DNA from: Halichondria panicea
Lineage: Eukaryota; Porifera; Demospongiae; Suberitida; Halichondriidae
Direction: 5' to 3'
Assembly: GCF_963675165.1 (NCBI RefSeq)
Contig: NC_087377.1
Location: 10,216,632-10,280,631 of the forward strand
DNA: 64,000 nt
The position numbers and the translations under genes are program-made. Below, piece by piece: positions 4,094 to 64,000 of the stretch; the stretch's first letter is position 1, and each line of letters opens with the position of its first letter. The notes under the pieces are model-generated. The model worked only from the letters and a program-made list of their open reading frames with translations. It was not told where the DNA came from and did not search any database.

Positions 4094-5244
4094 CTGAACG
4101 TTTCTGAGTGATTCCTCTAATAAGTCCCTGCATGGTCGGAATGGATTAACCACTCTCTAAACTGGCGTAAGAAACAAGTGATCAAACTAACAGTATAGAT
4201 GTAAAAACTAACAGTAGATGCAAAAAGTTTTTACGTAGCCCCTTTCATGTTTAGTTGCAGTCTTATAATTATAGTTCCACGCATGTGCTCAAAAGAAACA
4301 TTTGCATGCAGTAGTAGTTTTTTTCCATCATCATTGTATGCATGTCTATAAGTCACCCCCAAACATTGAAAGAGGATATGTCTCATATGACATAAGCTAG
4401 GCTGAATTGAATAGAATATCAGCTAGTATTTACTTGGGTTGCCAAACTGCATGGTTGTAATAATATCTCATGAAGCTCTCTTTCTATATGGCGTAGAATA
4501 GGTTGTACGTTCTGTCACTGACATGCCACAAGCCTCCTCTGTCAAACAAGTTAGTGTACTTCATCTTCGTCATGCATCACCTGCCATCTCCATGCATGAG
4601 CAAATGTTCGTAACACGTTGATTGAATACTGCAGAGGGCTTTATTTTGGTTGCTTAGTTTACGAAAGCAGGCCAAGAATCTCTGAATGATTCAGCGTCTC
4701 CATAATTATTGACTCTCTTTCTTCATTTCCCGAAAAAGTATTGACAAGACAATGGAGAAAAGCTTGTACAAATAATGTTTTTATTGGCAGTTTTTTGCTT
4801 GTTCCTTTTCATAGAATGTTCAATTCAGTTCATACACTTCACACATGCAACAGACGTATAATCTATCTCATTCCATTGTGCGCATTTCCCTGGTAAGAGT
4901 CATTTTTCCGCTCCTTAATTGTTTTCAGTCATGCATGATTGAGCATATAGTTTCGTAATACCAGCCGGTTCTCAATCATTAGTGTTTTCAAATTTTTCTC
5001 TGTTTTTAGAGTACTAATTTTGGCGGATTTGCAGCATTCTCTGTCTGCATAATTATCAGATGTCTGACATTCCAATGACATAATTACAATTGCAAGTGAA
5101 CCACGCCTACTACCAGGGGTGACACTTTAAATAACAAAAGGGCTTTGTGTGTTCAGCTCCTTAGCCTTACAAGGTATTTAATGGAGTCCTTTGCATACTG
5201 TGGCTGCTGAAGTAAGTTCGCCATAAATCATAGAAAGCTTAAAA
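4094..5244. other. Intergenic upstream of the methyltransferase cluster
   Basis: There is no supported gene. The last 80 bp (from about 5160) resemble the sequence just upstream of the second methyltransferase gene (6370-6440), for example TTTGCATACTGTGGCT against TTTGCATGCTGTGGCT. The duplicated unit therefore included promoter-proximal DNA. Confidence 0.5.
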
Positions 5245-6262: not shown

Positions 6263-6441
6263 TTATGATTGTTATCACGTTTATTAAAAGTCTGTAGTGC
6301 AGTAAACAGGAAGTTTGTGGCTAATTTACCTGCTATTGAACATTAACAAAAGGCTTAATTAAGTTTGTGTTTTCAGCCACCTTAGCAAAGTATTCAGCAG
6401 ATCCCTTTGCATGCTGTGGCTATTGAACCTGGATTATAAAA

Positions 6442-7218
6442 ATGGCTGTTGACAATAATATGTTGCAAGACTACTATTCCGATGACAAGCTTGAAAAATA
6501 TGCGGCAGCATGTGTTGATCTGAAATCACCCTCAATCAGCACCCGATACTATACCCTTTACTCATCACTGCCTAGTCTGAAGGACAAAACTGTGTTAGAT
6601 CTGCCGTGTGGACTTGGATTTAAAGCTAGGAAGTTTATTTTAGAGTACAAAGCAAGCAAAGTGGTGGGAGTAGACATTGTTCAGAAACAGTTGGACGTCT
6701 CAAGACAATTAGACGTGAAGGCAGGTGTTCAAGATGGACAAATTGAGTACGTTTGTCACGATGCAAAGATTGCCAAAGAGATTTGTCAAGCTGACATCTG
6801 CGTGGCTGTGCATCTTTTCTGTTTTGCCAAAAACTTTGACGAGCTCGTATCTATGGCGTCTTGTTTGATCATGAATCTGAAGCAAGGCGGACAGTGTTAT
6901 TCTTTATCTTGTTCCCTCAGCAAAGAAGACAAACAAACGATAATACAACTATTTCAGACATTTGATTACTTTGCTAGTCGTGTCGACCCGCTGCCAGATG
7001 AGATTTTAGTTCCACGGAGACTTATATATTCTAATGAAGGTTTCAACTATGATATGTATGCATGGGACGCTGAAGCAATCAAGAAGGCTTTCATAATGGC
7101 TGGTTTCTCTCGAGTTGAACTGGTCCCCTACAAGGCCGACCCGGAGTACAGTGGTCCCTATAACCTCGAGGAATACATGAAGACAGTCGATGGTCAAGTG
7201 GTGATAGCCGTCAAGTAA
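6442..7218 (+). CDS. Class I SAM-dependent methyltransferase, copy 2
   Basis: This is an intronless 258-residue paralogue of the gene at 5245-6018, full length and uninterrupted. Motif I (TVLDLPCGLGFKARK), the VVGVDIVQKQLD strand and the QADICVAVHLFCFA segment are conserved. Most differences cluster at about residues 155-190 (EDKQTIIQLFQTFDYFASR against DEHTIKLKLESFDHIVTR) and in the motif that follows. That pattern could reflect different substrates or relaxed constraint. The gene is followed at once by a TG tract and then the tandem-array region. The reaction and substrate are not identifiable from sequence alone. Confidence 0.88.
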   Translation: MAVDNNMLQDYYSDDKLEKYAAACVDLKSPSISTRYYTLYSSLPSLKDKTVLDLPCGLGFKARKFILEYKASKVVGVDIVQKQLDVSRQLDVKAGVQDGQIEYVCHDAKIAKEICQADICVAVHLFCFAKNFDELVSMASCLIMNLKQGGQCYSLSCSLSKEDKQTIIQLFQTFDYFASRVDPLPDEILVPRRLIYSNEGFNYDMYAWDAEAIKKAFIMAGFSRVELVPYKADPEYSGPYNLEEYMKTVDGQVVIAVK

Positions 7219-12993: not shown

Positions 12994-13771
12994 ATGGCTA
13001 CTGACAATATTTTGAAAGATTACTATTCCAATGACAAGCTCGAACGATACACTGCTGCAATATTTGATCCAAGATTACCTTCGTTCAGTACCCGATACTA
13101 TACCCTGTACTCCCTACTGCCTAGTCTGAAGGACAAGACTGTGTTGGATCTTCCCTGTGGACTGGGAATTAAAGCTAGGAAGTTTATTTTAGAGTACGAA
13201 GCAAGCAAAGTGGTTGGAGTAGACATTGTTCAGAAACAACTGGACCTCTCAAGAGAGTCAGACCTGACCTGAAGGCAGGTGTTCAAGATGGACGAATTGA
13301 GTACGTTTGTCACGATGCATTGATTGCCAAAGAGATTTGTCAAGCTGATATCTGCGTGGCTGTGCATCTTTTCTGTTTTGCCAAAAACTTTGACGAGCTC
13401 GTATCTATGGCGTCGTGTGTGATCATGAATCTGAAGCAAGGCGGACAGTGTTATTCTTCCTCTTGTTCCCTAAGCAAAGAAGACGACCAAACGCTAAAAC
13501 GAAAATTAGAGTCATTTGATCATGTTGTTACTCGTGTCGACCCGCTACAAGACAGTATTTTAATTCCTTGAAGACTTATTTGCGTGTATGAAGGTTTCAA
13601 CTATGATTCATATTCGTGGGACGCTGAAGCAATCAAGAAGGCTCTCTTAATGGCTGGTTTCTCTCGAGTTGAGCTGTTCCCCCACAAGGCCAACCCGGAG
13701 TACAGTGGTACCTATAACCTCAAGGAATACATGAGGGTGTTTGATGGACACGTAGTGAGGGCTGTCAAGTG
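12994..13771 (+). pseudogene. Methyltransferase copy 3, broken
   Basis: This is a clear paralogue of the genes at 5245 and 6442: it starts MATDNILKDYYS and has motif I as TVLDLPCGLGIKARK. A 5-bp tandem duplication of GACCT at 13261-13270 shifts the frame and gives a stop at 13270-13272. Homology resumes in another frame from about 13275. A CGA-to-TGA change makes a second stop at 13569-13571, after which the last 60 or so residues are still recognisable to 13771. Two independent lesions argue for a pseudogene rather than a single sequencing error. Identity along the remaining length is still high, so inactivation looks recent. Confidence 0.9.
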
Positions 13772-30008: not shown

Positions 30009-31610
30009 TCACTGCTTGAAACTATGTACATGTCCATAGGCAAGGTTCTCTTGAGTGTGGGGGTCTGGTTTAGTGCTTTCTTGTACTCCAGGTGGTGGTC
30101 TCATTTCAGTTTCAGCTTTCAGAATGATCTTCTCAGACCTCCTGCACTTGTTCACAGCCAGCACACTGAGGACACCAATGGAGACTCCAACAACCAGAGT
30201 TAACAAGATTGTCAGGATAATGGCCAGTATCAGTCTATCGTCAATCGACAGGCCTTCATTTTTAATAATTCTTGACGAAACATTGGAAGCTGAAAATAAA
30301 GAATGTTCGACTTGTGTACATGTAAATGCAACTTACTGAAATTGGTTGATTCAGTGAAAATACTTTCCCCACCAGCAGTGCTTAAGTAGACGTAAACAGA
30401 GTATTCTTTTTGTGCTGAGAAACTGAGGCGGGGATGATACGACATTGTGCTGATAAGAATTTCCACTGGTGAATCTTGAATCTCGAGTTGGTCACTGATA
30501 ATCACTGTTTGATGTTTTCCGTTGATTTCTCCCTCAATAAAGAGTGTGTAATTCAAGGTTTGGTATGGGCACAGAGAAGGTGTCTGTAGTGCAATGTGAG
30601 CAATGTGAAAGTATGGTGTCAGTCTAACTCTTACCTTGAGACTGATTTCAGCTCTTGGTTCAAGTTCAGCATTAAAGAGTACAAAAACTTGTACTGTAGA
30701 ATTGTAAGACGTCAGACCTATAGAGCGGAGAAAATGTTCTCGACAATAATATATATACGTAGCAAGTGATTAGCAAACCGTTCGTTTTAGGGAGACCTCC
30801 TGTGATGCTTCCCTGTTCACCTTCACCGAGCTCATTGACAGCACTAACAAAAAATATCAGCTCTTCACACTCTTCTAGAAAAGTACCAAGAAGGAGGCTT
30901 GCTTGTTGTACTTGAATCCTGATGCTCGTATCACTAATTGTTTCATTAAGCAGTCGTTCCAATCCATTTGAGCGAAGAAGTGTTACTCTGTATCCAGTGA
31001 TTGGGTGCTCTGGCCATGAAAACACTGGATTCCATCTTACAATCAGAATCTTGTCAACCACTTCCAGCACAGGATTAGGAGCTTGGAGTGGACCTATATA
31101 TGACGGTAAAGATTGTAGAAAAGAATTATCACAATTTAGCTCACCCATCACAATGATTGTTGTTAAGTTGCTCATTAACACAGTTGATGCGGCACTAGCA
31201 GTGCAAATGACGTTTGTATTGTTAATAGAAGATGTAGCAGTTGCATTCATAGTATGAGGCAACAAAAGACGTCCATATTGTGGTGAGTATATTTTTTCAG
31301 GGCCTACTATGAAACTTTCTTCGTTACTGTCCGGCTCAATCTTCCAACTTGGGGGGCTTAATCCTGTTAGTCCAGTATATACACAGCACAGAAAGGATAA
31401 ATCAGTTCCTTCAGCAACTCTTGCACCAGGTGTGACGATAACATAGACGCCTTCCTGAACATTGCTACCAACCTCCGTCAAATTCAGTGCTGAGACGCAA
31501 GGATTTCTAATATCCTGAGCACCACAAGTAGAGAGAGCTCTCAGCAAGATGAATGTGATGCATAGCCTGACCATTGACCTAAAGTTGAAAAGCTGTTCCA
31601 TCTCAACCAT
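30009..31610 (-). CDS. Ig-FN3 type I membrane receptor, intact copy
   Basis: Five exons (31145-31610, 30779-31093, 30635-30717, 30337-30583, 30009-30289) encode 463 residues. All introns are 47-61 bp, and all phases and GT-AG sites match. Exon 1 gives a signal peptide (start MVEMEQLF, chosen by alignment with the plus-strand paralogue) and an Ig-like domain with LSFLCC, a W at PPSWKIEP and VICTA. Exon 2 is a fibronectin III domain (PNPVLEVV, IVRWNPVF, FFVSAVNELGEGE). Exons 3-4 form a second FN3-like module. Exon 5 has a membrane helix (LILAIILTILLTLVVGV), a KCRRSEK stop-transfer and a short tail with ENLAYGH. It is probably a cell-surface recognition or adhesion receptor; the ligand is unknown. 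Its inverted paralogue starts 1.3 kb away. Confidence 0.85.
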
Positions 31611-31739
31611 CTTAGACACTCTGCTGGGCACACTACACTGACATTTCAAGGTAAAATATAAACTAGCTAACTTCCTGCCCCACAGCTAGCTAGCCATGAC
31701 AGCCGGCCGGCCCTCTGTACAGCCCCTTCTGGCCAAATT

Positions 31740-32820: not shown

Positions 32821-32911
32821 ACAGTACACATGACGTCATGCAAATTGTAGAACTAGAAAATTTTACATCCTGTTTAATAGACATTAGGAAGGAAAGAGAT
32901 AGAAGCTCCCA

Positions 32912-34479
32912 ATGGCAGAATTAGAAGCTTTCTACTGTAGATCTATACATCTCTGCATGATTATATTATGTTGCTTTCTTCTCATGAGGACTGATGCTCA
33001 ACCTACCAATCCTTGCATCTCAGCGTTGAACTTGGAAGACGGTGGCAATGCTCAAGAAGGAATCATGGTTTTCATCACACCTGGTGCAAAAGTTGCTCAA
33101 GGAACTGATCTATCACTTCTCTGCTGTCTGTACAGTAGTCTAGATGGATTGAGCTTCCCTGATTGGACATTTGAGCCGGCCAACAATAGAGAGACTTTCA
33201 ATCTTTCAATGTATATAGGCCCTGAAGTATCTACTCATCCATACAATGGGAAGAGTTTGCTGTATCGAACCATGAGTGTAACTGCTACAGAACGTATTAA
33301 CAATACCATGGTCAAATGTGCAACGCCTGAACTTCAAGGTGCTTGGAACACAATTATTGTGATGGGTGAGTTTAATTACTCTAACAATGGATTTTTTTTA
33401 TGTTTGTTATTCCCTATAGGTCCACCCCCACCTCCCAATCCCGTGTTGGTCATCCAAGACACCCTTATTATAAGATGGGATCCAGTGTTTTCATGGCCTG
33501 AGTACCCAGTCACTGGATACAGAGTAATGCTACTTCGATCCAATGGACAGAAACTGCTTGATCAAAGATTAAACAGTACAAGCATCAGTATTTCACTACA
33601 ACAAGCCAGTCTGTTTGGAGTCTTTCTAGAAGAGTGTGAAGAGCTGGTGTTTTCTGTTAGTGCTACCAATGATCTCGGTGAAGGAGAACAGGGAAGCATC
33701 ACAGGAGGTCTCCCTAAAGCAAACGGTTTGCTAATCACTTGATTAATATTGTTAAGAACATTTTCTCCACTCTATAGGTCTGACGTCCTACAATTCTACA
33801 GTACAAGTTGTTGTACTCTTTAATCCTGAACTTGAACCAAGAGCTGAAATCAGTCTCAAGGTAAGAGTTAGACTGACACCTTTCACATTGCTCACATTGC
33901 ACTACAGACACCTTCTCTGTGCCCATACCAAACCTTGAATTACACACTCTTTAATATTATTGAGGGAGAAATCAACGGAAAACATCAAACAGTGATTATC
34001 AGTGACCAACTCAAGATTCAAGATTCACCAGTTAAAATTCTTATCAGCACAATGTCGTATCCCCGCCTCAGTTTTCAGCACAAAAAGAATACACTGTTTA
34101 CGTCTACTTAAGCACTGCTGGTGGGGGAAAGTCTTTTCACTGAATCAACCAATTTCAGTAAGTTGCATTTACATGTACACAAGTCGAACATTCTTTATTT
34201 TCAGCTTCCAATGTTTTGTCAAGAATTATTGAAATTGAAGGCCTGTCGATTGACGATAGACTGATACTGGCCATTATCCTGACGATCTTGTTAACTCTGG
34301 TTGTTGGAGTCTCCATTGGTGTCTTCAGTGTGCTGGCTGTGAAAAAGTGCAGGAGGTCTGAGAAGATCATTCTGAAAGCTGAAACTGAAATGAGACCACC
34401 ACCTGGAGTACAAGAAAGCACTAAACCACAAGAGAACCTTGCCTATGGTCATGGACATGTACATAGTTTCAAGCAATGA
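32912..34479 (+). pseudogene. Ig-FN3 receptor copy with a stop before the membrane helix
   Basis: Exons 32912-33365, 33420-33725, 33778-33860, 33908-34157 and 34205-34479 mirror the intact minus-strand gene with the same phases. Exon 1 has a signal peptide (MAELEAFYCRS, then hydrophobic residues) and an Ig-like domain. Exon 2 is an FN3 domain (TLIIRWDPVF, LVFSVSATNDLGEGE). In exon 4 a 1-bp loss near 34071 shifts the frame and gives TAA at 34109-34111. A 1-bp gain in a G run near 34126 would return to the original frame, so the membrane helix and tail (ending GHVHSFKQ) are still open. As it stands the product would be about 348 residues, secreted and lacking the helix. It may be a pseudogene or a soluble form. 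Confidence 0.75.
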
Positions 34480-40150: not shown

Positions 40151-41108
40151 ATGGGAGTTCTATTCAACATCATTCTCTGTGCCCTAGCTAGCACTGTTGC
40201 TGGTCGATACAACAGGTACTGTTATACGAAATGGATGGACAGAGACAATCCTTCGGGAAATGGTGATTACGAAAATTTCTCACTTGTTTCAAGGACAACA
40301 GTTTGCCCCCAACCTGTCGGAATTCAATGTCAAACCACAACTGGAGCTCCCTACCATAGCACAGGTGAAAATTTAACTGTACTTGTGACTTACAATTGTT
40401 TTAGTCATCATCACACAGTATACTATACTAGTTAGGTGTCTCGTTGGTTCACATTTTTCTTGTTTGTACAGGTGACGTTCTCTCAATTGCTTGCGAGCCT
40501 CGACGTGGCTTAGCATGCATTAACAGTAATCAAGGGACTACTGGGTCTGGGTGGTGGAGAATTCAGAAGAAGTGCAAGGACTACAGAGTGAGGTACCTTT
40601 GCCCCGAGGGAAGCATTCCAGACACCAGAGGCATTGTTTGTAATTACTTCTATGAAACACCTTTCACGGACCGTGATAATCCATCGGGTCGCTGTGACTG
40701 TGAGACAATTAACCGCCCCCAAAATTCTTGTCCTGGAGGAGCTGCACCGGCTGGAATAAGGTGTAATGATGTGAGAACCAGTAGAGACTTTGCTGTGTTT
40801 GGGCAGAGGATGACCTGTAAACCTGATGTGAGTGAGCACAATAGGCTAAAAATAACCCGTTTCAGTTTATTGATTTGGCACATGTTAACAAATTTAATGT
40901 ATAAGGTGTCGTATATAGATCTATAATTATACTCACACAGGAAGGAGGGTATTGCTGGAACAGAGACAATTCGGGAGGCTGTAGAGATTACAAAGTGCAG
41001 TACATATGCCCTTATTTGGGCCAAGCACAGCAATTATCTGAGGGGGAGACCCTGGAAGAAGACTTTGAAAGAGTGGTTGCCGCACACTCTGCTGAACATA
41101 CAATGTGA
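40151..41108 (+). CDS. Secreted protein with two mucin-type WxxW domains
   Basis: Three exons (40151-40364, 40472-40827, 40941-41108) with matching phases encode 245 residues. The start is ATG at 40151 (MGVLFNIILCALASTVAG, a good signal peptide). An upstream GTG is in frame but is not a likely start. Domain 1 runs WMDRDNPSGNGDYE, VCPQPVGIQC, GLACIN and CKDYRVRYLCP. This is the pattern of the WxxW module found in gel-forming mucins and CILP (Pfam Mucin2_WxxW). Domain 2 is shorter: FTDRDNPSGRCDCE, APAGIRCND, a cysteine-rich stretch and CRDYKVQYICP. An acidic tail follows. It probably acts in extracellular matrix or mucus; that role is inferred from the family. It ends 1 kb downstream of, and convergent with, the adhesion GPCR. 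Confidence 0.85.
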
Positions 41109-42086
41109 ACATAACAATTTAATACGTAAATGTAACTCGAGAGACGGAAAAAGTTTAGTACAGAGTTATAATTTAACGCTGAAAAAATTATTATCGATAA
41201 GAAACGTTTGTTAAACTGCCATAGAAATTAACTCGTTACTGCATTCATAGAAATGTCACAGAGAGCGCACAAAGTGGCTAAAACTTTAACTGGGGTTCGA
41301 AAGGGACCCATGGCCCCTCGTTTCGGTACTTTTAAAGGGTTCAGCACGCACCCTGAGACGTGATTTGACAGGTAACCGATCGAGGGTATATATACACTAC
41401 GGTTTTGTACCAACCTCCAACCTCTATTATAGGTGTGGTCCTGTAGATCCAAGCTAGAGTACTTTGAGGCAGCCGAAAAAATATTAAGAATCCCCTGTTC
41501 ATGTATTCCAGCCATTATGCGGAAAAGGGAATTAAGGGGTTTCACTAGGTTATAGCTATAATTATAGTGGGGAAGAAAGGAAAGAGAGTGGGCTTGTCTG
41601 GCCACGTCAGTCATCACGCCCTCGGATCCACCTTCGTATTGGCAAAAAAAGTAGTTGGGTAGGAGACTAAGTGCATGAGGGATAGTGGGGGGAAGTACGT
41701 AGGAGAAAGCCAAGTGAATTAAGTATAGTCTCGCAAACATCGGGTCTAGCTTCTGCAAGACTATATACGCGGTTAATTTATAAGTGGAGAATATACTAGA
41801 CATGATTGTTAGATGATTTAACGCAGGGCGCACCCTGTTCCACAACCCCACCAATGTATATATTTTTTGGTTCCGCCCCTGCTGACGTACGTACATACTG
41901 TTCATAGTGCAACAACCAAAGAGAGTAGATTTTTTGTGTGTGCACATTTTTACAATGTGTGCAATAATTGAAAACACACACAACTGCACATGCACTGTCA
42001 ATCCTATGTATACAACCTACTGGTTGTATACTAATACTAGGTGATCCACCTGTCTAGACATGAATTTAAGGTAGATCTATACCAAA
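41109..42086. other. Intergenic between convergent genes
   Basis: A 257-codon minus-strand open frame (41228-42001) crosses this stretch. It has no recognisable domain, signal or repeat, and part of it (near 41800-41880) looks like dispersed repeat sequence. It is not called as a gene. Confidence 0.45.
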
Positions 42087-45000
42087 TTATTTTTTCCCGA
42101 GGCAGAAATTGATGCAACGCTTCTTTTGCACTGCTTTAGGAAGTTTTTGACCTAAAAATTAGAAGAGATCTAGACATAAAAATGCTAAAAAATGAAACAC
42201 GCACCTTTTCACTCCTGAGCACATGGAAGATGAACACGAACAGGCCTTGCAGTGAGTTAAAGATAGAAAACAACCATGCAAACACAATAGTGCTGCTGTT
42301 GACTGAAAGTAGACCAAACACCCAAGTCATCCCGAGCAATGGAAGGAGAATTATAGTGGCCTTGAAGAGTTGTCTACATGCATATACAAGCATTGGAATC
42401 AAGGTGTTACTGAATGATGCATGCACGGATGACACACTCACGAGAATAATTTTAAAAATTCCTTTTTCCCAGTTTTTTGCATGGTTGATTTTCTCAGATT
42501 ATAGACACTGCGCAAAGCAGCCAAGAGGAAAAACACATTCACCTGTACAGTATAGTCGTCATATAAAGGTTAAATAAAATAAACTGATGAGTGCAGATGT
42601 GTACTCTCAAAAACTGCTGCTTTACAATGACAGCCTGATGTGTACTCAGCAGAGTCAAAAACTGCTGCTATATATTATATACACTATAGGTGCATTTGCA
42701 AGCTATTTAGAGATCTCACCAGAACAACTAGTAGCATTGGTACAACAAATGCCCATATGGCTCCTTTATCACCAGCACCAACGGCAATCCAACAACTGTG
42801 CATTGTATAAAAATGAATAAATTTGACAGTTGTAAAGGTTTGTAATAATTACACGAAGGGGGAAGCGCTGTATGTATATGTTGTAACATGCATACAGTTA
42901 TGAATTTGGAGATGAGGTTCCATTGAATTATTAATTATCTAACTTACTACTCTTCTGTGCCATACTGGTCATGAATAATTCCAGCAGATATAGCCACTGG
43001 TATCACTGGAACACCTGCAAGAAACATACCCAATGCACTCAACGGAATGCTCATCACCGCACATGCATGCATGTATAAATGGATGAACCCTCCACCCAGT
43101 TCGAGGGGTATAAGAAATTCACGCATTTATTATAAAAGAGAGGTTGTCTTCTTTATTGTGCTCAAAGGCTGACAGTGCATGGGCAAGAAAAGATAAGCTT
43201 AGCTGCAGTTAACCTCGTTCCCAACTTCATTGTCTCTAAAATAGTATTTTTCTTAAAGAAAAATCGGCCTTGGGAGGCTAAGCTGCAGTATGACATGTGC
43301 AGTATATTAGTTTAGCCAAGCATGCAGTGAAAGTGGTTGCTCATGCACATACTTTAATTATGCATTCATGCATGGTATATATAGTATATATGCATCGATT
43401 GTGCAAAATATTTTTAATTACCCCATCCAATAATAAAGAATATCCACCATTTCTTGAATATTCGGTTGAAGACAAGCACCAACATCAGATAGAGCATGAT
43501 TCCCTCACACAGCATCCAAAAGAACACAGTAGTGAACAGGTAGTGAAGAAGAGCAGCCACAAACACACACGCTCCCTGCAAGTCATGGAGAATTATAGAA
43601 TCAATACAGTATAAACTCTCGCTAATCCGGCTCTCTGAATTATGGTCATCTCGATAATTATATCAGCCGTTTTGTTAGGCACGGATTGCTATATAGCTAG
43701 CTAGATCAATATTGCACAAAACTCACCCTGAAATGCGGGCCACCTCGCTATTCCGTATAATTATACTAGTCAGTTCTAACAGCCCCAAACCAATATAGAA
43801 TTATATGCATGAGAGTAAAGGCCAAGTCGCGGATCCTACTGCATATATATACAGTAAAGTTTGGAACAACAGTGAACAATCTTTGTGAATGAGCCAAATA
43901 AGCAGACACTTCGCTATCTGTATAACAGGCAAGGATCGTGATATCATAAAAGTATACTGACATAAGTATCTGCAATCTTATTTTGCGATATGCCATATAA
44001 ACACTCGCAAAGTTCGCAAATGGAGTAGTATTATAATTATATAAGACTTGCTCATAAATATGAATTTCAGTATACATGTTGTCCGTTAAAATTTTAAGGT
44101 AAACTGTACCAGCTAATAAAACTGCATAATTTATAGATACACTGACGACTCAAGTGATACCTCGCTGGCCACAGCAGTCTCTACTCCTGACAGGAACACC
44201 ACGTAACCAAGGAGCAAAGAAATAGACAGGTTGAGATGGATGAAGTTATGCACCTTGGTCAGCAGTTCTTTTCTAAACATCAATAGCATAATTATAGCAA
44301 GGTTTTATAATGTATATGCACAGCTATATAATTACCTCAACGTCAAGAAATAGAGGATAGACAACAGAAGAAAGAAGATGGAGATGGAACAACCAACGTA
44401 AGTCACCACCGATAGAGCAAACCTATTTTCTGGAATTGTGTCCTACAAAAGATTAAACGTAATTATAGAACAGTTTTTTTACTAATTTTGCGTGGTTATT
44501 GGATTAGTATTCACTGCATGAGGCTCACATTCAGTGCTCCAGTGACATCCATTAGAACAGCAAATGCTGTGAAATGACTGCTCTCACAGACAATATTATA
44601 CACTCTCATTTGCTCATCTTCATCCAAACTGACTGTAATCACACCTTCTGTGGACCACCTGCTTTTGGCCGCATCACTGACAAAATAAATCTTTGACAAC
44701 AATAAACATTAGAAGGACATGCAGCTCACCTAGAAACACTCCAAAATACACATTTTGCATTTTCAGCAACTTCGTCCTCAGAGAACTGCACACACAAGCA
44801 TGAATTAGTGTTGCTTGTAAATCCAACTACCTGTTGGGTGGTGAATCTGAATGTTGCCTGTGTCTGGGAGTTATTTAACTTTACATTGGAGAAGACTTGA
44901 CTAGAAATAACCTGTGATACTGGTCTGGTCGTGCTCCTGTGTAAGCATACAATGAGACTGAGCAGAACATGACTTAGCATACTGCTGATAATATACATTT

Positions 45001-48000
45001 CAAGATTGGTTTTTGGAAGAAAATCCTCCAAGTTAGAAAATAGAATGTTGACTGTTGTAACATTCCCCCCTGAAAATTGAGACAGACATGGATAAACAGA
45101 TATTGGTTACCACCAAAGTTTATGAAATACGTAGAGCACCTCTCTCTATAAGAAGAGCAGCTGGTATCACAGTTTGAGCTGAGCCTGTTTCTTGACTGAC
45201 TTCGACAACTTCAGGAAAGATAATGTCATCCAAACTAGTGGTATCAACTTCAATTGCAGCTAGCACTGGACGGTAAATGCAAATATACTAGCTTCAAATC
45301 AACTATCTAGTAAATGGTGAAGTATATGCATACCGATGTTCTGTCTCACAAGTTTGATCTCAGTCACGTTGCCTGTATCCACAGCTTCACTCCTTAGTGC
45401 CAATGACACATACTGACCATATAACTCTGCACTCAACAACAATTGTTGACTCTCAGCAGCATAATCCTGAAGTATAATTGTTTGCATGATTGTCAGTATA
45501 ATTATTATATCTATAATTATATATCTGTACCATTTGTAATCTTTCCCATCCTTCTGTATTCCTCTCATCCAGAACATTGTTGAGAACATTCATAACTTCC
45601 TGCAAGACTCAATTATTTAAACAAAAGGGACTTGACTTATAGTCTTACTTCACTAAAATTGAGAGAAGACATGGGGCTAGCAATCTTAACACTTTGAACT
45701 AGATAATTCACACTTAACTTGACGATCATATTAGCAGTGCTGAGGTCTTGAGGGAATATGGTTGAGTCTCCTATTGCATTTACACTAGTAGCCTCCGCAA
45801 GAGAAACAAGGAGGTCGTCAACTTCATTTTGAGATGTATTGTTCTGAGATGCATTTCTAGAAAATAGTTCATTTGCCTGAATGGGAAATAGAAAACTATA
45901 GCTAATGAAAGATCGTCACGAACGATTTTAAAAAGAAGAGGGCATGCAACTCAGGCTATTCTCTCAAAGATCTGATCTTGATGATATAGACACGTGCATA
46001 TTATAAGATTTTGAGAATGTACACGTGCAATATTATTCAGTATATGATACATGACAGCGCATGTATTCATATATACAATAATACAGTAACTGCAAAGTCT
46101 CACCCTGTCATTAAGTGAGAGAAATACTTCCCTAGTGCAGTTATCAATATTCACTGCTTCCCACACACCTTCAAATGTACAGAAACGATTTGCAGTACCT
46201 ATAAATACATGCACATCAATATACAGTCACTTGGAATGATAATTATAGTGATACCTAAAGTTGTTCCATTTCTATTTTGTGGGCATTGCTGGGAATAGGA
46301 AAAGCCAGCCACAGTAGCAGGGAAGACCAGCCCCCATACAGAATCACGTTCAGCTTCACACTGAACCACGCCTATACAGAAAATCATAATTATAATCAAA
46401 AACGTTTTCCATTCAGTTGCTACGACCATGAACGAGTATTAGTTGGGCGGAGTCCGTGTTGTTTATGCATTCGCGTTGGTTGAACCCTGCCCAGCTAAAT
46501 GAGTATGAGGATATGCAATATCAAAGTTCAGCAGCCTCGCAGATGGGCCCAAACTGTATAGTCTGAACACATTAATTTCAACCAGAAGGTATAATTATAG
46601 GTAGAGACCAAATTTCGTCAGATGTCAATAATCGTTAACTATAGAAGTGCATATAATGCACCAATAAAACGAGATTGATTCTAACTAACTGCACACACCA
46701 ATAGGTGGCTATAGGACTACTAACCAACAACATTTTTGATGGGCCAAGTTGCTTCCAGTCGGAGCTATAATCACTAGAAAAAACTGTTCAATTGTTCGAT
46801 TTTTCGGCGTGTGTAATCTATTTCCGTTTTTGCCAGATCTACACAGCTAGAGTTAGCTGACACATACTGGGCTCAATCTAGATAGAGTACAGTACATGGT
46901 GGAGCAATTTCAGAGTCAGTAGACCTTGCAAAGCTGAGCTAGAGTCATTTGTGCCTGACGAAAGTAAAGCCCATGCAGCGCTAATAATCCAGTTTCTGTG
47001 GCACAGTATAGTGTTGAGTAGAGTATTCTCTAGTCGAATATGCAGCCTTAGAAAACATTGTAGCCTTGTCATTTCTTTGAACACATTCACTCAAATGCTT
47101 GCAAAATGGGGGGGGGGGGCGGGGGTGACATTATCGGTAGCTTTTACTGTCAATATGTATAAAGTCTGAATTGTCTCAAAGTCTAGATATGATGTGACAA
47201 ATAGTTGACCAGTATCAGGCTCAAGTAAATTTCCACAAGTATAATGTCATAATAATTTGAGGGAGGTTGTCAAGATGATCAGTGGCAATTAACAATTGTC
47301 CAATAAATTGTGATTCAGATATCTCAGCAGAATATTGAGGGAAATCAAAAAAGTGAATCATCAACCATGTACAACGAGAGAATTTTTGCACTACTGACTC
47401 CACTGTCCACTGCCATTACTCACAGGAATACAGTACTAGTATTTTACACATATATGCTATGAACATGTACATGAAGGAACTACATGATATAGTCTCTAGA
47501 AACAATATAATCTTCTCTTTAAACTCAACTTACCATTACAGATGAGTTGCTCACGTTCACAAATTGCTGCTTCTCCATCAAAAACACCAGTAGTGCTGCT
47601 ACCATCTCCAGTGCAAGTCCTTGTGTTGTTACCAACCAGAACAAACCCAGTGTCACAACTGTGGTTAGCCATGGAATTGAAAGCATAGTTGCCGTTTTCA
47701 TTAGAAGAAGAACTATTGTATGTCACAAAGCCATTGGTAGGAGCAGTCAAGGGAGGACAGGTTATAGCTATGGTGAAATGAAGCAAATCAGTTATTATAA
47801 TTATTAGAACACTCAATTTACCATTACAGACGATTTCATTTGTTCTAGAAAATGAAGCAACAAATCCATTCAAGCAGCTACAGTTGAACTGTTCCCTGTT
47901 ATTCAAACAAATAGAATTTTGACCACAGTTGCATTGTATGGGAGATAATCTCATGCCTCCAGGATAACCATAAGAATTGTCTGAGTTTAATCCATACACT

Positions 48001-49288
48001 GAAACACCTAGAACAGCTGAGCTGTTTTGATGGTGGATAGAATGAGCTCCAGTAGACACACTCGTTCTACTTACGTGGCCACAAACCTCTCCACTTGAAC
48101 AGACAACATTTCTCCAGCCAGTAACAATGGAATTGTCTAATAATATTTGTGCAGTTTGAAAAAACTCGGAAGAAACATATACCGTGACATAGTTAGATAA
48201 GAAAAGAGGAACTGCTTCAACAAAATAATTATTTGTAAACTGCTCAATTGGAGGGATTATCATCATGAATGGGTCTCCCACGCCATCCCTCTCCCTACCA
48301 TACGCATACTGGACGACTAGTACTGGAGAAGTGGATTCAATACTACAGAAACTGTTAATAGGTATTTCAAACTCTCTGAAACTCCCTCCACTCTGCAACT
48401 GGAATTCACTGACTGATACGTTAGTGTTGCAGTTCACAGCTATACTTGCTGCTCGGGCACTAAGAACACGAATACGTTCACCAGAAGATCTACCCTCGAG
48501 AGATGCCACGAGGAATTTTGAGCCCCATGTCACAGTCGGAGGCACTTGTTCAACCAGGTGGTCACAAGCGCCTACACTTTGAGGAACATTGGCACAATCA
48601 GATCCACTAAACACAGACAAAGGTTTGGAGCTAGTTATTCTTGTTCCTGTGAGATCATTATCACTTTCAATCTGATATGTTTCCATACTATTGAGTGTTA
48701 TTGTTGAGGAATTAAATTTGACAACAGTTTTATTTTTACAAGCCACCAACAAAATCACACTAGGAGTGTTATTGGTGTCATAGGAGATTCCATAATATTC
48801 GTATTCATTAACTGCCATTTTAGAACAGGGTAACGCTAAATAAGCATCTGTAGTAGCTGAATGAAAAGACATCGCATACAAATTGATGTCTCTGTCAGCT
48901 TCAACAAGGATCCCCTTGTTCCTTTCATCAACAGAAAATACCTCAAAACTCGATGGAATGAATATCCTAGTTGAAGAGTTAGAAACATTCCCACTGATAT
49001 CAATTGGAGTGACAGTGAAATTAACAGCACTTGACTCCGGGTTTGTGATAAACAAGAACAACTCGGGATCGATTCCTGGAAATTGAACAGCATTTCTTGG
49101 GAAACCGATCATGAATTTTTTGCCAGCACTTGATAAAATATTATCTAGGGTTAATGGACAATTCAAGGATTACACGCTAGATTCTACAAGAATTCAGTCC
49201 TACCTGTGATTTGGGCATCACAAGATGGAGCAAATGTGATTATGATTATTGTCAATGACAAAGTAGATCTAGCAATTCTGTAGCTCAT
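42087..49288 (-). CDS. Adhesion GPCR with IgGFc-binding, EGF, Sushi and hormone-receptor domains
   Basis: 21 exons, all phase-matched with GT-AG ends, predict 1,214 residues. Exons: 49204-49288, 47822-49144, 47534-47767, 46255-46371, 46104-46198, 45649-45876, 45531-45599, 45334-45466, 45140-45265, 44997-45069, 44831-44936, 44730-44785, 44529-44676, 44336-44442, 44161-44272, 43422-43575, 42948-43014, 42720-42795, 42442-42542, 42205-42373, 42087-42152. Domains: signal peptide ([13 protein letters not shown]...); IgGFc-binding type, ~30-400; EGF-like ([12 protein letters not shown]), ~433-468; Sushi ([11 protein letters not shown]), ~470-545; hormone-receptor type ([12 protein letters not shown] to DNC); GAIN; GPS with CVFWS and [13 protein letters not shown]; helices including [12 protein letters not shown] (TM3), [16 protein letters not shown] (TM5) and [14 protein letters not shown] (TM6). 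It is a plasma-membrane receptor; the ligand is unknown. The 1.16-kb intron between Sushi and hormone-receptor exons is the weakest link: an ATG at 46429 with a hydrophobic stretch could start a separate shorter receptor. Confidence 0.82.
43607..43790. mobile_element. pogo/Tigger-type fragment in an intron of the adhesion GPCR
   Basis: It starts CAGTATAAACTCTCGCTAAT and shares interior words (GGCACGGATTGCT, CACCTCGCTATTCCG) with 13918-14275. The right end is missing. It lies in the 585-bp intron between the second and third helix exons, which explains why that intron is unusually long. Confidence 0.7.
46440..46498. mobile_element. Possible 59-bp remnant of the hAT-like family
   Basis: It starts TAGTTGGGCGGAGTCCG and ends GCCCAGCTAA, an imperfect inverted pair. 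The flanks are ACGAGTAT and ATGAGTAT, matching at 7 of 8 positions. It lies in the large intron of the adhesion GPCR. It could be an internally deleted copy of the 12077 and 36131 elements; chance similarity at the right end is possible. Confidence 0.5.
46600..46990 (-). repeat. Interspersed repeat, inverted copy of 38.69-39.05 kb
   Basis: This is the reverse complement of the repeat at 38690-39050, with substitutions and small indels. It lies inside the intron between the Sushi and hormone-receptor exons and accounts for much of its length. A 12-G run follows at about 47108-47119. Confidence 0.7.
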
Positions 49289-56255: not shown

Positions 56256-58340
56256 ACTATAAAATTATAACTTATATCCTGTTTTCATGCAGTTGCTAAG
56301 ATATACCCATGCAGGGTATAACTCCCTCTGATATTTTCCCCAGACATGTTTGGTACATGTTTACATGTTACATGTAGATAATTTTGTCTTCTAGACGCCA
56401 CTATCTGCAGCGTATAAGATTGGCATGATCGATGAATGGCTTGACACAAAATTGTTGGAGTTCCAACGATGAAACCACTGCAAAACAGCCCCACCCCACT
56501 TACTACCCCTAGCTGCGAAGAAACAGCCCCCATGCACTCCACTACTCAGTGTATAACTGTATAACTAGCCCTTAACGATGGTCTACCCTCAGCCTCACAA
56601 CCAAGCCAAAGAGCTTGCCTCTACACTGCTGCAAAACAGCTCAAGTTCCCAGGAAAAAGAGTCGCTTCTAGTGCTGTGGTGAAGCAGAATTGATATATGC
56701 ATCACGAGGTCGAGGACTAGGTCTATATAGGAACACAGAATCTTCCACAAATGAACTTTGGACAATTTAAAAACCTGCATGGTTGCGAGAAACTCCAGCA
56801 GTGCTGAACATTCCTGCATGGCTGGACTTACTTTGATACTTGTTATTTCTCATGATTATTATTTAATTTAATGTATGTCTAATGACAGAGGGGAGTTTTG
56901 TGGTTAGTGCATTATGCTGCATATTGGACTTGGCAACAACGTAGCAATGGGACATAAATAATTGTAGCCGGCTAAGGCTGCAGTTGCTTTTGATTTTGTA
57001 TAATTATTGTACAGTACTTTAGTACTGGTCGTTATTGCAAAGATATAGTGAGGCGCTTACAGATACTGTCTGACTCCAGCTCTGTGGGTATGTGTTGTTT
57101 TAACTGTTTGTGTGCTTTATTCTTAGAGAGGAGGAATCAGGGCGGGGCTCAGAGTGGCAGTATATACTACGTACCATCAAGGGTATATAAAAGAAGAGAG
57201 GGCATGCAACAGCAAAGAGCAGAATTCAAATGTGGGCGCATGAATGTGCTTAAAATACTACAAATAGAATTTTCTATTTTTAGCACTTTCTGCACATATA
57301 TACTGAATATGTACTGAGAGGACACATACTGGGAGGACACAATATTATATTCCTCCGCTCACATTTAAATTCTGCTAGCTATGTCTATACCGTGAGATAG
57401 TGCATGAGATGCATGCCCTAGCAGGGCCGTAAGAAGATTTTTTAGGTGGGGGGCAGAAAAAAGGAATGGACCCTCTCCTTGCAACGTAGGGGGTGGGTGC
57501 GTCCCGCCGGAGGCGAACTTTTTACATTTTGTATGTTCTCAGAGATAAACAGGAGAAAGATACATAAATGAAATAATCCGCATGTGAGAGCTATAGCAAA
57601 ATAGTTTATTCGACGTGGAAGCAAAGTCATGCATGAGCAACTGCTTAATTCAAATTAAGTTAAGCGAATCAGTTAGCAACTTGTGTATATAAAGTAAGAA
57701 TAGACGCTGAAGAGAAAAAAGAATAAATATTGTGCCACAGTGAGCTCTATAGCTATATAAATTTCAGCTGCATGTGGATTAACTTACTGTAGTTACTGTA
57801 CAGTTTTGTTGCAACAAACCATGCACATGCATTTAACCATGTGGTTAGATTAAAAGGCACTAAATATAATATCAGGACTGTGATCTGCTGGACTCTGCAG
57901 AGGAGCTTTTTTTTCGATTACTCGACGTTCTACTGCTAAGTGCCAAAGTGTTTGTTTTATTTGTGTGCCACTGGAAAGTCATAATTAATTTTAAGTGGTG
58001 CTGTAATTAGAATAAAGATAGTATATTAGAGCATTTCTTTGACAGCGTCAAACTTGTTATTGACAGAGCAAGCTCTCCACAGTGCTTTTTTTTTTACTTT
58101 CTGAAAGTAAGTTCGCAACGCATAGCCCATCACATAGGATATATAATAAATAATAACACTCATATAATTGAAGACATTATAAATAGGCTATAGTACATTC
58201 ACATATGCACACTCTCACCATATAATAACAGCTAGTTTAAGGCTAATCTAGTGAGTGAGTCTTGTGGGAGGGAAAATCAGTGCATGCATGCATATGGATG
58301 AAACAAATACAATCATCATTATGGCTACATTAAACCTTAC
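56256..58340. other. Intergenic or 3' region of the ankyrin gene
   Basis: The ankyrin exon ends in a donor at 58341, so one or more downstream exons of that minus-strand gene are expected here or further left. None could be identified with confidence. The minus-strand frame at 56595-56819 (74 codons) is a weak candidate without domain signals. Confidence 0.4.
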
Positions 58341-61300
58341 CTGGAAGGCTGCTAAGAAAGTCGACAACATTTGTGTGTCCTCCGTCTATAGCCATCTCAG
58401 CAAGTGTCTTTCCCAGCACACCTCTGGTGGTAGTTGGAGAGCCAATGTTGACTAGAAATTGGACCAAATCACAATGACCAAGGGCAGCAGCGTAGTGGAG
58501 AGGTAGGTTGTGGAAAACATCCTTGGAGAGAAGATCGGCTCTTGAGTGAACTAAAAATCGGGCTATTGCTTGGCGTCCCCCCATAACAGCATAGTGGAGG
58601 GGGGTTCGTCCAATAGAGTCTTGGAGGTCAGGGTCAGATTGGAGGTCAGTGATATAGTATTGCACTGATGAGATGTGGCCAAGCAGGGCCGCTAGATGGA
58701 GTGCTGAAGGTGAAAACTGAATGGCAGGGGTGTGATCTTTAAGAAAAGGGATTACATCTAAATTGCGATAGCCAATAGCTATGTCTAATGAAGTACAGCC
58801 AACTTGGTTGGTTATACGAGAATCAAATTTTAGAACATTGATCAAGTACCTGACTATGCTTTGGTAGCCACTACGAGATACAGAGTGAAGAATACTTTCT
58901 CCAGTGTTGGTCCTCAAATTTTGATTTAAACTGATAATTTCAGATCCCAGGAAACAGACAGTTTTATATAAATCGGTTTCTGTAGCTGTAGCTCTCCAAA
59001 GTAAATGATTTGCTATACTAAGATTTGCTCCTGAGCATGCTGCATGTGCTGGAGTAAATCCACTTTCATTCGTACAGTTAGGGTCAAGATCATAGTCAAC
59101 AATGAGATGTCTCAAAATGTCGATCTGCCCATTTATTGCAGCATAATGTAGAGCAGTGTTGCCTTGGAAATCTTTCCAAATGGGGCTGTAACCGTTGGAC
59201 ATCAACAAATTGACTACGTTCAAATTCCCTCCTAGTGCAGCATGGTGGAGAGGTGTTGCTTTACTGCAGTCAACTTCTGTTGTTATAGAGCAGGGATCCA
59301 TGTGATTGATAATGACATCTGCAATTTCCTTGTGTCCATGTATACAAGCTACATGAAGTGGAGTCTCGTTAAAGTTATTTACAGCAGTTGGATTTGCCCC
59401 AAATGCCAATAGCGAGTGCATGATTGACAAATCACTATCAGGGCTATATTGACTCGCTAATGTATGAAGAAGAGAATTGCCTTTGTCATCTTTAACGTCT
59501 ACATTTGTTCTTCTGTCCATTAAAAACATTTGGACAATTTCCATAGACTCACCCATGATAGCATGATGTAGAGGAGTCCAGTTATCTTTGTCTTTACGCA
59601 TTACATCACAGTTAGGTAGCTCAAGTAGAAATCTGGCTACATGCTCGTACCCATTACAAGCAGCTAGATGCAAGGGAGTTAATCCTACGGAGTTTTGATG
59701 GTTGACTTTAAGTCCATATACAACAACAAACATTTGAACTAGTTCAAGCTGTCCAAGCTCTGTTGCAATATGGAGACATGTGTTTCCTTCATTATCGGCA
59801 ATGGTTACATCACACCCTCTCTCAATCAGAAAATTGATAAACTCTTTCGTCAAAGTTTTGACAAAATAATGATACATTGTTACATAATGAAAAATTGTCT
59901 GACCATTGTGGTCTCTGCTTTTTAGATCATATTCTGGCGACAAGGCAAGTTCTTTTGCAATTTCAATATTATTGCTCTGCAGAGCAAAACAAAGGTTGAT
60001 AAAATGATCGCCATTTTTTACTGGATGAATGTGCCTTGTTAAGTACTTAATCACGTCTTCGTGTCCATTTTTGCAAGCTAGATGAAAAGGAGTTAGTTTG
60101 CGTGCATTTAAGGAGTTGGGATCAAAACCAAAGTCGTCTACGAATAACTGAACGAACTTGAGTAGTCCATGCTCAGCTGCAATGTGAAGGCATGTGTTTC
60201 CTGCCTTATCAGTAGCTGTTACATCACATAATTTTAGGTTCACAAGAAAATGTGAAACTTCAATCTGCTTTGCATCAAGAGCGTAATGTAAAGATGACTT
60301 GCCATTTCTGTCACTCGCTTGAAAATCACATGCAGGGCATTGTTGAAGAAACTGTACAATATTCAAGTGGTCTCCAGAACACGCCAATTGAAATAGAGTA
60401 GTATCCGAAAGATATGGAATATTGGGGTCGCACTTGAGGTATGATATATAGTAAGTGACAATCGGGAGCGACCCATTCAATACTGCATAATGAAGAGGAG
60501 TGATTTCCATAAAATCTCGAGGTAAATGATCAGTTGTTTTACTTGTTAAGTACACAATAGCCTCAATATTTCCATGCATTGCGGCATGATGCAGAAGAAC
60601 TTGACCTGTTTTGTTCATTGAGTTTAAAGGACATTGGCACTCTTCAATGAGGTACCTCATAATTTCTGTTGTTTCATAGCTAGCAGCAGAATAATCCAGA
60701 GGTAGCATACCATAACTATCTTTTACCATTGCATCGCATTCACACTTTTCAATTAAATACCTTACTGCCTCCACTTGTCCAAATCTTGCTGCATAGTGAA
60801 GGGGCCCTCGATCACATTTATCTTTGTCCATTACATCACATTTACATTCTTCAACCAAATACTTCAAGATAGCTATGTTTCCATTTTTTGCTGCTGTTGA
60901 ATGAATAAGCATGCTAATTATAAGTGCTTTTTCATTTTGTATATTATAATTCAGCCTCTCGACAAAAAATGTGAGCACATCTAGATGTCCGTTTATAGCG
61001 GCTAAGTGAGCTGGTGTGAAACCATCTACATTTGTGATAGACTTTTTACAGCTCACTTCAAGTGTTAGGTACTCCACAACAGGTAAGTGGCCATTGCTTG
61101 CAGCAAAATGAACTGGAGTTTGGCCTAATTTAGTTGTATCATTCTTGTCACAGTCGAAATCAGATATAAGCAATTTGCACATTTTGACTTCTCCATGCAT
61201 TGCTGCTGTATGCAGAGGTGTGCGACCATTATTGTCACGAGATAGTAGCAAGTCAGAGTTCTTACTTATCAAATATTTAGCAATATCGGTCTTTCCAAAC

Positions 61301-63708
61301 ATAGCTGCCAAGTGAAGAGGTGTTACTCCGTCTTTGGTCTTCACTTGAACGTCACATTCGCACTCTTCAACAAAATACTTTACGATGTCTACATTATTGG
61401 CAACAGAAAAGTGAAAAGGAGTTAAGCTATTTTTATTTGTAACTAGGACATCACAACCACATTCTTCCACCAAGTATTTTATTGTGGTAATGTCTCCAAG
61501 CATTGCTGTAAGATGAAGAGGTACACAGCCGTCTTCATCTCTTGTCATTATATCACATTGGACTTCTTTAACCAGATACCTGACATTGTTCATGTTTCCC
61601 ACCACACACGCTTCATGAATAGGAAATGGACACAACTTGATGCCATGTGACTCTTGGTCACTGTCAGCAAGAATGTCAAATCCCATTTTTTCAACAAAAA
61701 ATTTCATCACATCTACATGTCCACTAATTGTGGCAAGATGAGCAGGTGTATTATTGTCATTGTCAACACATTTTATATCACAGTTTTTCTCCAAAGCTAG
61801 ATATTCAACAACTGGTAAATGACCACATTTTGCAGCATAGTGAAGTGGTGTTGCTCCTTCCTTGTCTTTGGTTTCAAGCTCAAATTTGCTGAGCAGTTTC
61901 ACGGTACTAAGTTGTCCTTGTTCGCATGCAATATGGAGTGGTGTTTGACCTTTACTGTTAGTTAGTTCAGAGATACTTGTTACTCCATTTATTAAGTATC
62001 GAAGAACAGGAAGGTTCAGCTGGTGTTCAATACTTCTTTGGTTCATATCTGTGATAATATTTTTTAGATATGTTTTCTGATGAAAACGTAATTTGGTGGA
62101 AGTTTTGAGAACACGTTTGTAGAGATCTGTTTTAAGTAACTTTCTCTCTCTCGTATAAGCTGCATAATGCAATGGTGTATTACCATTGTTATCTGAGGAA
62201 TTCGTGTCAACCTGTTGAGTTTCAGCTAAGTACGTAAAGACATCAATAGAGTCTCCCACAGCTGCAAGGTGTATAAGAGCTATTCCGTTAACATCTTTAG
62301 AATTTTTGTCACACTTCTGATCCTCAATGTAATATTGGACAGCCGTTATATTATCATAGAAACAGGCTATATGAAGTGAAGATAATGTTGGACAACAATT
62401 TTGCTCTTCAACAAGAAATTTAAGAGTCTTCATGAATCTTGGAGGATTTTTTATGTGATGAAGCACAACATTACCTAGCAAAAGATCAAAAAATTTTTGA
62501 CCTAAACTAGCGAAGGGTAAGAGTTGGATTTCATTATTATCATCTTTCTTAGTGTTTGGGTCACATTCACGATCGATTGTTAAATATTTTACAGTTTCAT
62601 ACTGACCTACACAAACAGCAAGCTGAAGAGGTGTAATTCCTTGAGAGGCTTTACAGTATTGGTTGCATTTTCGATCCTCAATGAGATATTTAGTGATGAG
62701 AATTTGCCCAAATTGACAAGCCATATGAAGAGGTGATATTTTGTAGACATTGAGAACATTGGGATCACCTCCATAAGCTTCTATAAGACATTTGAAAATT
62801 TCTAGAGTACCACCTACTGCTGCATAGTGAACAGGTGTATTGTTTAGGATGTCAGTACACATCACATCACAATTGTGTTCCTTAATCAGGTACTCAAGAA
62901 CACAAGGTGTTTCACATAGAGCTGCATAGTGAAGTGGAGTACATCTATTAATTGTTAGTATGTCTGGTTTGTACGTCTTTGATTCAACTAGATACTGAAC
63001 AATATCTATCAAACCACATTGACAAGCTAGATGAATAGGCATGCGGCCATTTTTGTCTGCTTCATCCAGCAATGCAAACCTATGCTGAGTCATGTCAGAT
63101 GGCATGTCTCGCTCAAGTCTTCGAAGGGTAGCAGCTTCAGTCTGAATGTTTACTAAGTACTTAACCATTTCTAATTTTTTGGACAATACAGCATAGTGAA
63201 GTACTGATTCGCCAGTGAGAGTTGTGTTACAAATGAAATCTTCAACTAGCTGATGTTTTTGAGCTTCCTGAACCAAAAGTTGGACTATCTGCACGTTACC
63301 AGCTAAGCAAGCCGGAAATAAAGGTGTTTCCTTGTATTCATTACAGTATAATGGATCAACTCCTTTCTCAATAAAATACTTGACGATATGTTTGTGCCCA
63401 TAGAAAGCAGCAACATGAAAAGCAGTTGAACCATCAGTAGCTTCACAAGCTGCATTGACTTGGCACTGTTCAACAAGGTATTTAACAACGTTAAGATGTC
63501 CAGCTCTTGCGGCAGTGTGAAGAGCCGTATCACCTTGTTGATTAAAGTCTAATGGATCTAGTTCCTGAAGTTTAATACATGCTGCAACATCACCATTATA
63601 ACAAGCAATATGAAGTTGAGAATTTCGTTTTGGAACACATGCTTTATATCTTTTCAATAAACGACTAGTCTCAATCTGTGCTGCCATTGCACTGGGAAAA
63701 TATTTCAT
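58341..63708 (-). CDS. Giant ankyrin-repeat protein, single 5.4-kb exon
   Basis: An uninterrupted frame of about 1,790 codons holds roughly 48 ankyrin repeats, each with the TPLHxAAxxGHxxxVxYLVE pattern; typical examples are GDTALHTAARAGHLNVVKYL and GVTPLHLAAMFG. A less regular gap of about 60 residues follows repeat 10, and an insert (FHQKTYLKNIITDM) follows repeat 14. The start is ATG at 63708, or more likely the next in-frame ATG at 63687, which has a better context (GCAATGGCA). The frame formally ends at TAA 58330-58332, but the codon before is split by a perfect donor, CCAGgtaagg, at 58341/58340. The gene therefore probably continues into another exon. Many repeats have CD at the finger (ECKCDVM). 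Ankyrin stacks bind proteins; the partner is unknown. No catalytic or membrane domain is seen in this exon. Confidence 0.92.
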
Positions 63709-64000
63709 TGGTGAGGTTTCAATGGTGTTTAAAAGACCAAGTCGGTCTATTTTCTCCTCTGGTTGCTATAAAAGTCAGTGTATGGAGGAAATACAAACAA
63801 TCATGATGGTCTTTCAATGCATTAGTAGTATAACTCATACACTATGGGGTAACTATTATCAATCAAAACATCACTATCTTGGATACTTAATGGATACAAG
63901 TTGAAGATTATAATTATCGTACGAAACTGACCGACTTTAAATTAACTGATTCTATAATTGCTATTACGTTTGATTATGAAGTGAAATATACAGAAAATAC
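63709..64000. other. 5' flank of the ankyrin gene
   Basis: Non-coding by eye. It is presumably promoter or 5' UTR of the minus-strand ankyrin gene, and no motif can be assigned. The 60-codon plus-strand frame here has no supporting feature. Confidence 0.4.

Follow-up and report, generated by a model that had tools for sequence, protein, structure and literature searches.

The window analysed here is a stretch of 64,000 nucleotides from the sponge Halichondria panicea (assembly GCF_963675165.1, contig NC_087377.1, forward-strand positions 10,216,632 to 10,280,631). Its minus strand from 49288 to 42077 very probably holds a single adhesion G-protein-coupled receptor (GPCR) gene, in which an IgGFc-EGF-Sushi head precedes a hormone-receptor (HRM) domain, a GAIN domain with its GPS and a seven-transmembrane (7TM) body. 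Spliced translation gives one joined reading frame of 21 exons from the ATG at 49288 to a stop codon, encoding 1217 residues (Table 1). The initial annotation, made from the sequence alone, had ended the gene at 42087; in the spliced model the last base of the stop codon is 42077. Its exon phases hold, with exon 1, the IgGFc/EGF exon and the Sushi exon each ending in phase 1. The acceptor tgattttctgtatag before 46371, which it had proposed as the continuation, carries on in phase 1 and the frame stays open through to the stop.

Table 1. Features of the predicted receptor gene and of its junction intron (window coordinates)
Feature	Position	Strand	Content
Exon 1	49204..49288	-	start codon, signal-peptide-like start, phase 1 end; no stop or frame change in 6/6 paralogous units
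Exon 2	47822..49144	-	IgGFc-binding domain and EGF-like end, phase 1-1; Pfam PF17517 2.7e-55; many genomic paralogs
Exon 3	47534..47767	-	Sushi, phase 1-1; Pfam PF00084 2.6e-06; Sushi exons in paralogs; U1749-type donor would give end 47555
Intron stretch with disintegrin-like/cadherin relic pieces	46413..47349	-	protein-level 47349-47001, DNA-level 46437-46413
Decoy ATG and signal-peptide-like frame into HRM exon	46372..46429	-	begins inside cadherin relic
Exon 4	46255..46371	-	HRM first part, acceptor tgattttctgtatag
Exon 5	46104..46198	-	HRM second part
Exon 6	45649..45876	-	GAIN
Exon 7	45531..45599	-	GAIN
Exon 8	45334..45466	-	GAIN
Exon 9	45140..45265	-	GAIN
Exon 10	44997..45069	-	GAIN
Exon 11	44831..44936	-	GAIN end, ahead of GPS
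Exon 12	44730..44785	-	GPS first part (CVFW)
Exon 13	44529..44676	-	GPS, predicted cleavage motif HF/T (cut between F and T), tethered-agonist-like TAFAVLMD
Exon 14	44336..44442	-	7TM start
Exon 15	44161..44272	-	7TM
Exon 16	43422..43575	-	7TM
Exon 17	42948..43014	-	7TM
Exon 18	42720..42795	-	7TM
Exon 19	42442..42542	-	7TM
Exon 20	42205..42373	-	7TM
Exon 21	42077..42151	-	short tail and stop codon

A Pfam search of the joined protein, a check the initial annotation had proposed, returns the expected order of signal peptide, IgGFc-binding, weak EGF, Sushi, weak HRM, GAIN, GPS and 7TM. IgGFc_binding (PF17517) is matched over the complete profile (positions 1-297 of 297; 2.7e-55, 188.2 bits, cut-off 25.6), and 7tm_2 is equally strong (2e-55, 188.2 bits, cut-off 20.6). 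GAIN (3.5e-15, 56.4 bits, cut-off 26.5), GPS (2.5e-07, 31.5 bits, cut-off 22.5) and Sushi (2.6e-06) are also matched. The protein thus has what identifies an adhesion GPCR: GAIN and GPS ahead of a 7TM of class B type. Cadherin, laminin G, VWD and TIL have no Pfam match in it. Against the PDB, the GPCR part is closest to adhesion GPCRs, first of all to ADGRL3 (7wy5; 1.2e-65), over a stretch that starts within GAIN and runs to the end of the 7TM. The IgGFc exon has a single PDB match at E ≤1, a weak EGF match to NELL1 (0.11).

The window copy has the H-x-S/T motif at which cleavage is predicted and the tethered-agonist-like stretch that follows it. The GPS segment SSHFTAF[AS]VL[MV]D is present in all 27 close core copies, one with a stop just ahead (C4_3600 is not counted). 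The ratio of nonsynonymous to synonymous change (dN/dS), calculated over seven units including two frameshifted ones, is that of purifying selection for the 7TM (0.24), GAIN (0.31) and GPS (0.35). A Sushi value of 2.72 came from four rows with few changes and was not used.

The Sushi and HRM exons are joined across 47534/46371. Splice sites between 40 and 52 kb were scored with a matrix built from the 19 other acceptors and 19 other donors of the gene. The acceptor at 46371 is equalled by 0.29% of 685 AG sites and is the best in the junction intron, every other AG there scoring more than 1 bit lower. The donor at 47534, chosen in the initial annotation, is equalled by 0.24% of 840 GT sites and is the stronger of two candidates in the window copy; the alternative at 47555 (equalled by 7.1%) also keeps the frame. 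In the paralog U1749, the Sushi donor is the equivalent of 47555, likewise in phase 1, and most genomic Sushi matches end nearby. The stretch past the alternative donor (47554-47526), ending ctgtaatggtaagttgag, resembles by eye the end of the EGF exon (gtctgtaatggtaaattgag). It is as if the window copy had gained a new Sushi donor here through duplication or conversion. The donor of exon 9 (45139) is GT in the window and GC in five of six paralogous units (same donor in L081 and L083-L087). A poly-A site in the junction intron had been named as a sign of two genes; AATAAA and ATTAAA are absent from this intron but also absent between the stop and 41500, which makes the scan uninformative.

The genome itself (131 Mb in 39 contigs, the assembly of the window) holds many paralogs, against which the choice between one gene and two can be tested. 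Of 32 genomic matches to the HRM exon, 24 were examined by eye for the AG and for an ATG. A phase-1 AG precedes the exon in 24/24 copies, 15 times as tctatag, with a shifted place in C14 and two C4_36 copies. The acceptor is thus kept where the ATG often is not. Six paralogous units were compared with the window exon by exon, and four have no break between the IgGFc signal peptide and the 7TM tail, as expected of a joined gene: U1764 (1145 residues from Met to stop), U1464 (1209), U1472 (1137) and U1760 (1145). U1764 and U1464 have the Pfam architecture of the window, with HRM and EGF again under the cut-off. U1764, U1472 and U1760 are without a Sushi exon like that of the window; with head exons of phase 1-1, their frame stays intact. 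Between the last head exon and HRM, C4_3600 has an intron of 195 bp, U1749 one of 393 bp and U1764 one of 443 bp. A loose scan for a hydrophobic first exon found no candidate in the junction introns of C4_3600, U1749, U1764, U1472 and U1760, and two overlapping ones (14 and 16 residues) in that of the window.

The same core is found behind different heads. Close core copies were taken as exon 20 matches at ≥82% identity, at least 26 among the matches listed. In 13/26 of the close core copies listed, all on C1, an IgGFc match on the same strand lies no more than 14 kb upstream. One of these 13 has an IgGFc fragment only and no HRM match, and another has a stop-broken IgGFc match. The count used 33 of 105 IgGFc matches and 28 of 32 HRM matches; the full IgGFc tables, checked by eye, have no row near the 13 unlinked copies. 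Two divergent C4 units, added since they are IgGFc-linked, bring the total to 15/28. Over core exons 13-15, 26 other copies with different heads share 86-97% identity with the window. Near-identical predicted HRM-GAIN-7TM cores are thus joined to different phase-1 heads. In a tree of three core exons (C4_3600 excluded; the row named 'out' is not an outgroup), a single IgGFc clade is not rejected (p-AU 0.075), and the head may have been acquired once or more than once.

Two other places in the genome touch on the heads. At C1:14.98-15.12 Mb (L044, L045, L049-L052, L056, L059, L060), tandem IgGFc exons lie amid long arrays of separate Sushi exons, with no 7tm_2 nearby among the matches listed; these are apparently IgGFc-Sushi genes without a GPCR part. 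At L063 (C1:17610000-17611260), open frames resembling Calx-beta stand ahead of an HRM exon, and an IgGFc match farther upstream is stop-broken. A Calx-beta head for this 17.61-Mb unit was not accepted, the Pfam matches (E 0.013 and 0.073) being under the cut-off; the unit is possibly another head swap.

The junction intron of the window contains remains of a further head. In two C5 paralogs, cadherin repeats (Pfam Cadherin 3.1e-31) and a weak disintegrin match under the cut-off lie in an open exon immediately before HRM; this exon has a phase-1 donor. The window stretch 47349-47001 matches this exon at the protein level with 65.9 bits (7.8e-16), against at most 26.6 for 20 shuffled queries, and stops and frame changes interrupt the cadherin-like stretch. 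When the whole genome is searched with the C5 exon, the junction intron is among the matches (C1:10263632-10263859, 1.8e-11). At the DNA level, the intron aligns to the exon alone with a score of 192 under strict gap costs (≤29 in 200 shuffles) and of 449 under permissive ones (≤216.5 in shuffles). When the whole intron was aligned permissively to the C5 region (498, ≤236 in 200 shuffles), the alignment ran beyond the exon and was too gappy to be used. The piece 46437-46413, which holds the ATG at 46429, is identical to the C5 exon at 23/25 bases (strict score 40, ≤25 in 1000 shuffles); with permissive gap costs, the piece around the ATG is borderline (54.0 against a maximum of 53.5 in 500 shuffles). 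The supposed start codon thus corresponds to the M of FMVIATD, part of a cadherin repeat in the C5 exon.

Relic pieces above the shuffled maximum of 26.6 bits also occur in other IgGFc units and in C4_1557 and C4_1646, both of which have a Sushi exon further upstream. The copies thus seem to have split when a cadherin head already stood before HRM, and the IgGFc-EGF-Sushi head looks like its replacement. In copy U1655, a 16-base exact inverted repeat lies between two relic pieces, at the place of 46540-46440 (L067); the window has none of ≥8 bases. This may be a small inverted-repeat element that inserted into the relic in an ancestor.

Exon 2 varies in clusters among 17 close copies, the observed value being reached by 0/2000 shuffles. 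By eye, the variable clusters lie at about residues 18-27, 91-98, 122-127, 188-192, 283-288, 307-315 and 385-389. A first test of these clusters (1.10 against 0.30, bootstrap 0.75-1.61) was circular and was discarded. When cluster positions were chosen on seven copies of the 15.0-Mb group, which has no 7tm_2 nearby among the matches listed, dN/dS in six GPCR-linked copies was 0.92 in the clusters and 0.33 elsewhere. Clustered variation on a conserved scaffold would be consistent with a surface that binds variable ligands and is under relaxed or diversifying selection. It also fits, without proving it, the suggestion in the initial annotation that the protein is a sensor of matrix or microbes.

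A working model follows from the family to which the protein belongs. The signal peptide of exon 1 would direct the protein to the cell surface, where the GAIN domain would cut itself at HF/T and the IgGFc-EGF-Sushi-HRM head would remain attached. Binding of a ligand (matrix, mucus or a microbial surface), or a pull on the head, would expose TAFAVLMD to the 7TM body, and the exposed segment would start G-protein signalling. Historically, a receptor with a cadherin exon before HRM would have gained the IgGFc-EGF-Sushi head through phase-1 exon shuffling. The cadherin exon would then have decayed in place, and the unit would have multiplied while short clusters of the head diversified. Taken together, we tentatively suggest, with less than even confidence, that this repeatedly duplicated family is a diversified recognition system. 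A single core would serve a set of interchangeable phase-1 heads (IgGFc-EGF-Sushi, cadherin, Sushi arrays), the IgGFc head varying in about seven clusters for microbial or self/non-self ligands and the junction intron retaining the cadherin relics. If the head clusters do bind different ligands, this would be a GPCR-based recognition family whose diversity is directly testable.

Several observations weigh against the joined gene or the model built on it. HRM (22.7 bits, curated cut-off 26.2) and EGF_3 (15.3 bits, curated cut-off 28.5) fall short in Pfam, HRM directly before GAIN and EGF in its expected place. Two of the six paralogous units are frameshifted: 2 bases are missing from exon 12 of U1749, and the frame of U1750 changes in exons 2 and 16. 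Thirteen of the 26 close core copies listed (on C4, C5, C10 and C14) are without an upstream IgGFc. Two permissive alignments, with 118 and 85 gap openings, place the relic pieces differently. In 8/24 HRM copies, including the window, the AG is preceded by an in-frame ATG without an intervening stop; in the window copy and in U1764 this frame is hydrophobic as well, which leaves room for a short isoform. The dN/dS of the clusters is not above 1.

This last value, about 0.9, would also suit a joined gene whose head is a structural adhesive for anchoring to matrix or mucus instead of a recognition device. The term 'IgGFc-binding' does occur in a limpet mucus adhesion paper (PMC7333891), and we regard this reading as a real possibility, short of an even chance. 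The concentration of variation in short clusters argues against it, as does the finding that fast positions picked in one copy group are also fast in another.

The ATG at 46429 bears on two other readings. The joined receptor could be the main product, with a headless short isoform from an internal promoter at 46429; the ATG frame is open in the window copy, but it is not conserved across copies, and such an isoform is unlikely. No in-frame ATG lies between the nearest upstream stop and the HRM exon in 14/24 copies, including the otherwise open U1472 and U1760, and in 2/24 the only one is inside the HRM exon. Two separate genes are highly improbable; one would encode a secreted IgGFc-EGF-Sushi protein that ends near 47500, the other a GPCR starting at 46429 with its own signal peptide. 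The frame from 46429 is signal-peptide-like and runs into HRM, the Sushi exon is open beyond 47534 up to a stop near 47496 and U1764 has a similar open frame, but those 14 copies have no such ATG, the ATG is ACG in U1749 and U1750 and is lost to stops or frame changes in others, its surroundings are cadherin relic, and a T-rich acceptor tract would by itself encode hydrophobic residues. The separate start had at first seemed decisive and was rejected after the paralog comparison and the relic. The gene is accordingly described here as one joined receptor.

Other open reading frames (ORFs) of the window were noted. Just past the 3' end of the receptor gene, on the opposite strand, an ORF at 40432-40926 (+) has a Mucin2_WxxW match (3.3e-09, Pfam) and is mucus-protein-like. 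The divergent ORFs 30672-31685 (-) and 32903-33742 (+) look related by eye and have no Pfam match at E 0.01. Two related S-adenosylmethionine (SAM) methyltransferase-like ORFs, both Pfam-matched, lie at 5227-6018 and 6427-7218 (+), and a third SAM methyltransferase-like ORF at 13179-13571 (+) looks like a partial copy of them. One open frame of 1811 residues at 58330-63765 (-) consists mostly of ankyrin repeats. The ORF 454-957 (+) has a weak Death domain match (E 0.00095, under the cut-off).

Adhesion GPCR evolution is thought to run by domain shuffling, of which usually only the end states are visible. Here, with core exons 86-97% identical behind different heads, a single genome would show a head swap and a dying exon next to each other. 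A 2025 study (PMC12716839) describes domain shuffling as extensive in these receptors. A 2021 survey of Halichondria panicea receptors names IgGFc-binding, Sushi, EGF, HormR, GPS, GAIN, CA, Calx-beta and 7TM in its Figure 1 legend (PMC8242945), so the architecture may already be drawn there. Swapped heads, relic exons and variable clusters are not mentioned in the portion of that survey available to us. In the literature searched, IgGFc together with adhesion GPCR gave nothing, and IgGFc-binding with sponge and GPCR gave only PMC8242945. IgGFc with 7tm gave the same survey and an IgA transcytosis paper; IgGFc with G protein-coupled receptor, EGF and invertebrate gave it and a Manila clam paper.

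The profile PF17517 may be younger than the receptor survey of the sponge Amphimedon queenslandica, and the absence of IgGFc there therefore says little. At least eight Amphimedon adhesion GPCRs bear HRM, and EGF is among the drawn domains, both being domains with weak matches in the window; words in IgG- or Sushi- are absent from the main text of the survey (PMC4302439).

Three known systems are closest to the parts of the protein. The IgGFc-binding domain takes its name from human FCGBP; sponges are not known to have IgG. FCGBP has VWD and TIL repeats. The window matches the whole 297-position profile of that family, but it has no VWD or TIL match and its IgGFc domain is joined to a GPCR. 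In the case of CELSR/Flamingo, the likeness is with the C5 paralogs, where an open cadherin exon adjoins the HRM exon. The window keeps relics of this exon; its own cadherin exon is broken, the head is IgGFc-EGF-Sushi, and neither cadherin nor laminin G is matched in Pfam. The extracellular part of ADGRL3, a latrophilin-type receptor (7wy5), has lectin and olfactomedin domains, in whose place the window has IgGFc-EGF-Sushi. The GPS (HLT in ADGRL3, HFT in the window) and the tethered agonist align (HL/TNFAVLM in ADGRL3), whereas of the four GPS cysteines of ADGRL3 two are kept in the window and two are replaced. Beside these systems, the most unusual parts of the family are the head swap with its cadherin-exon relics and the clustered variation of the head.

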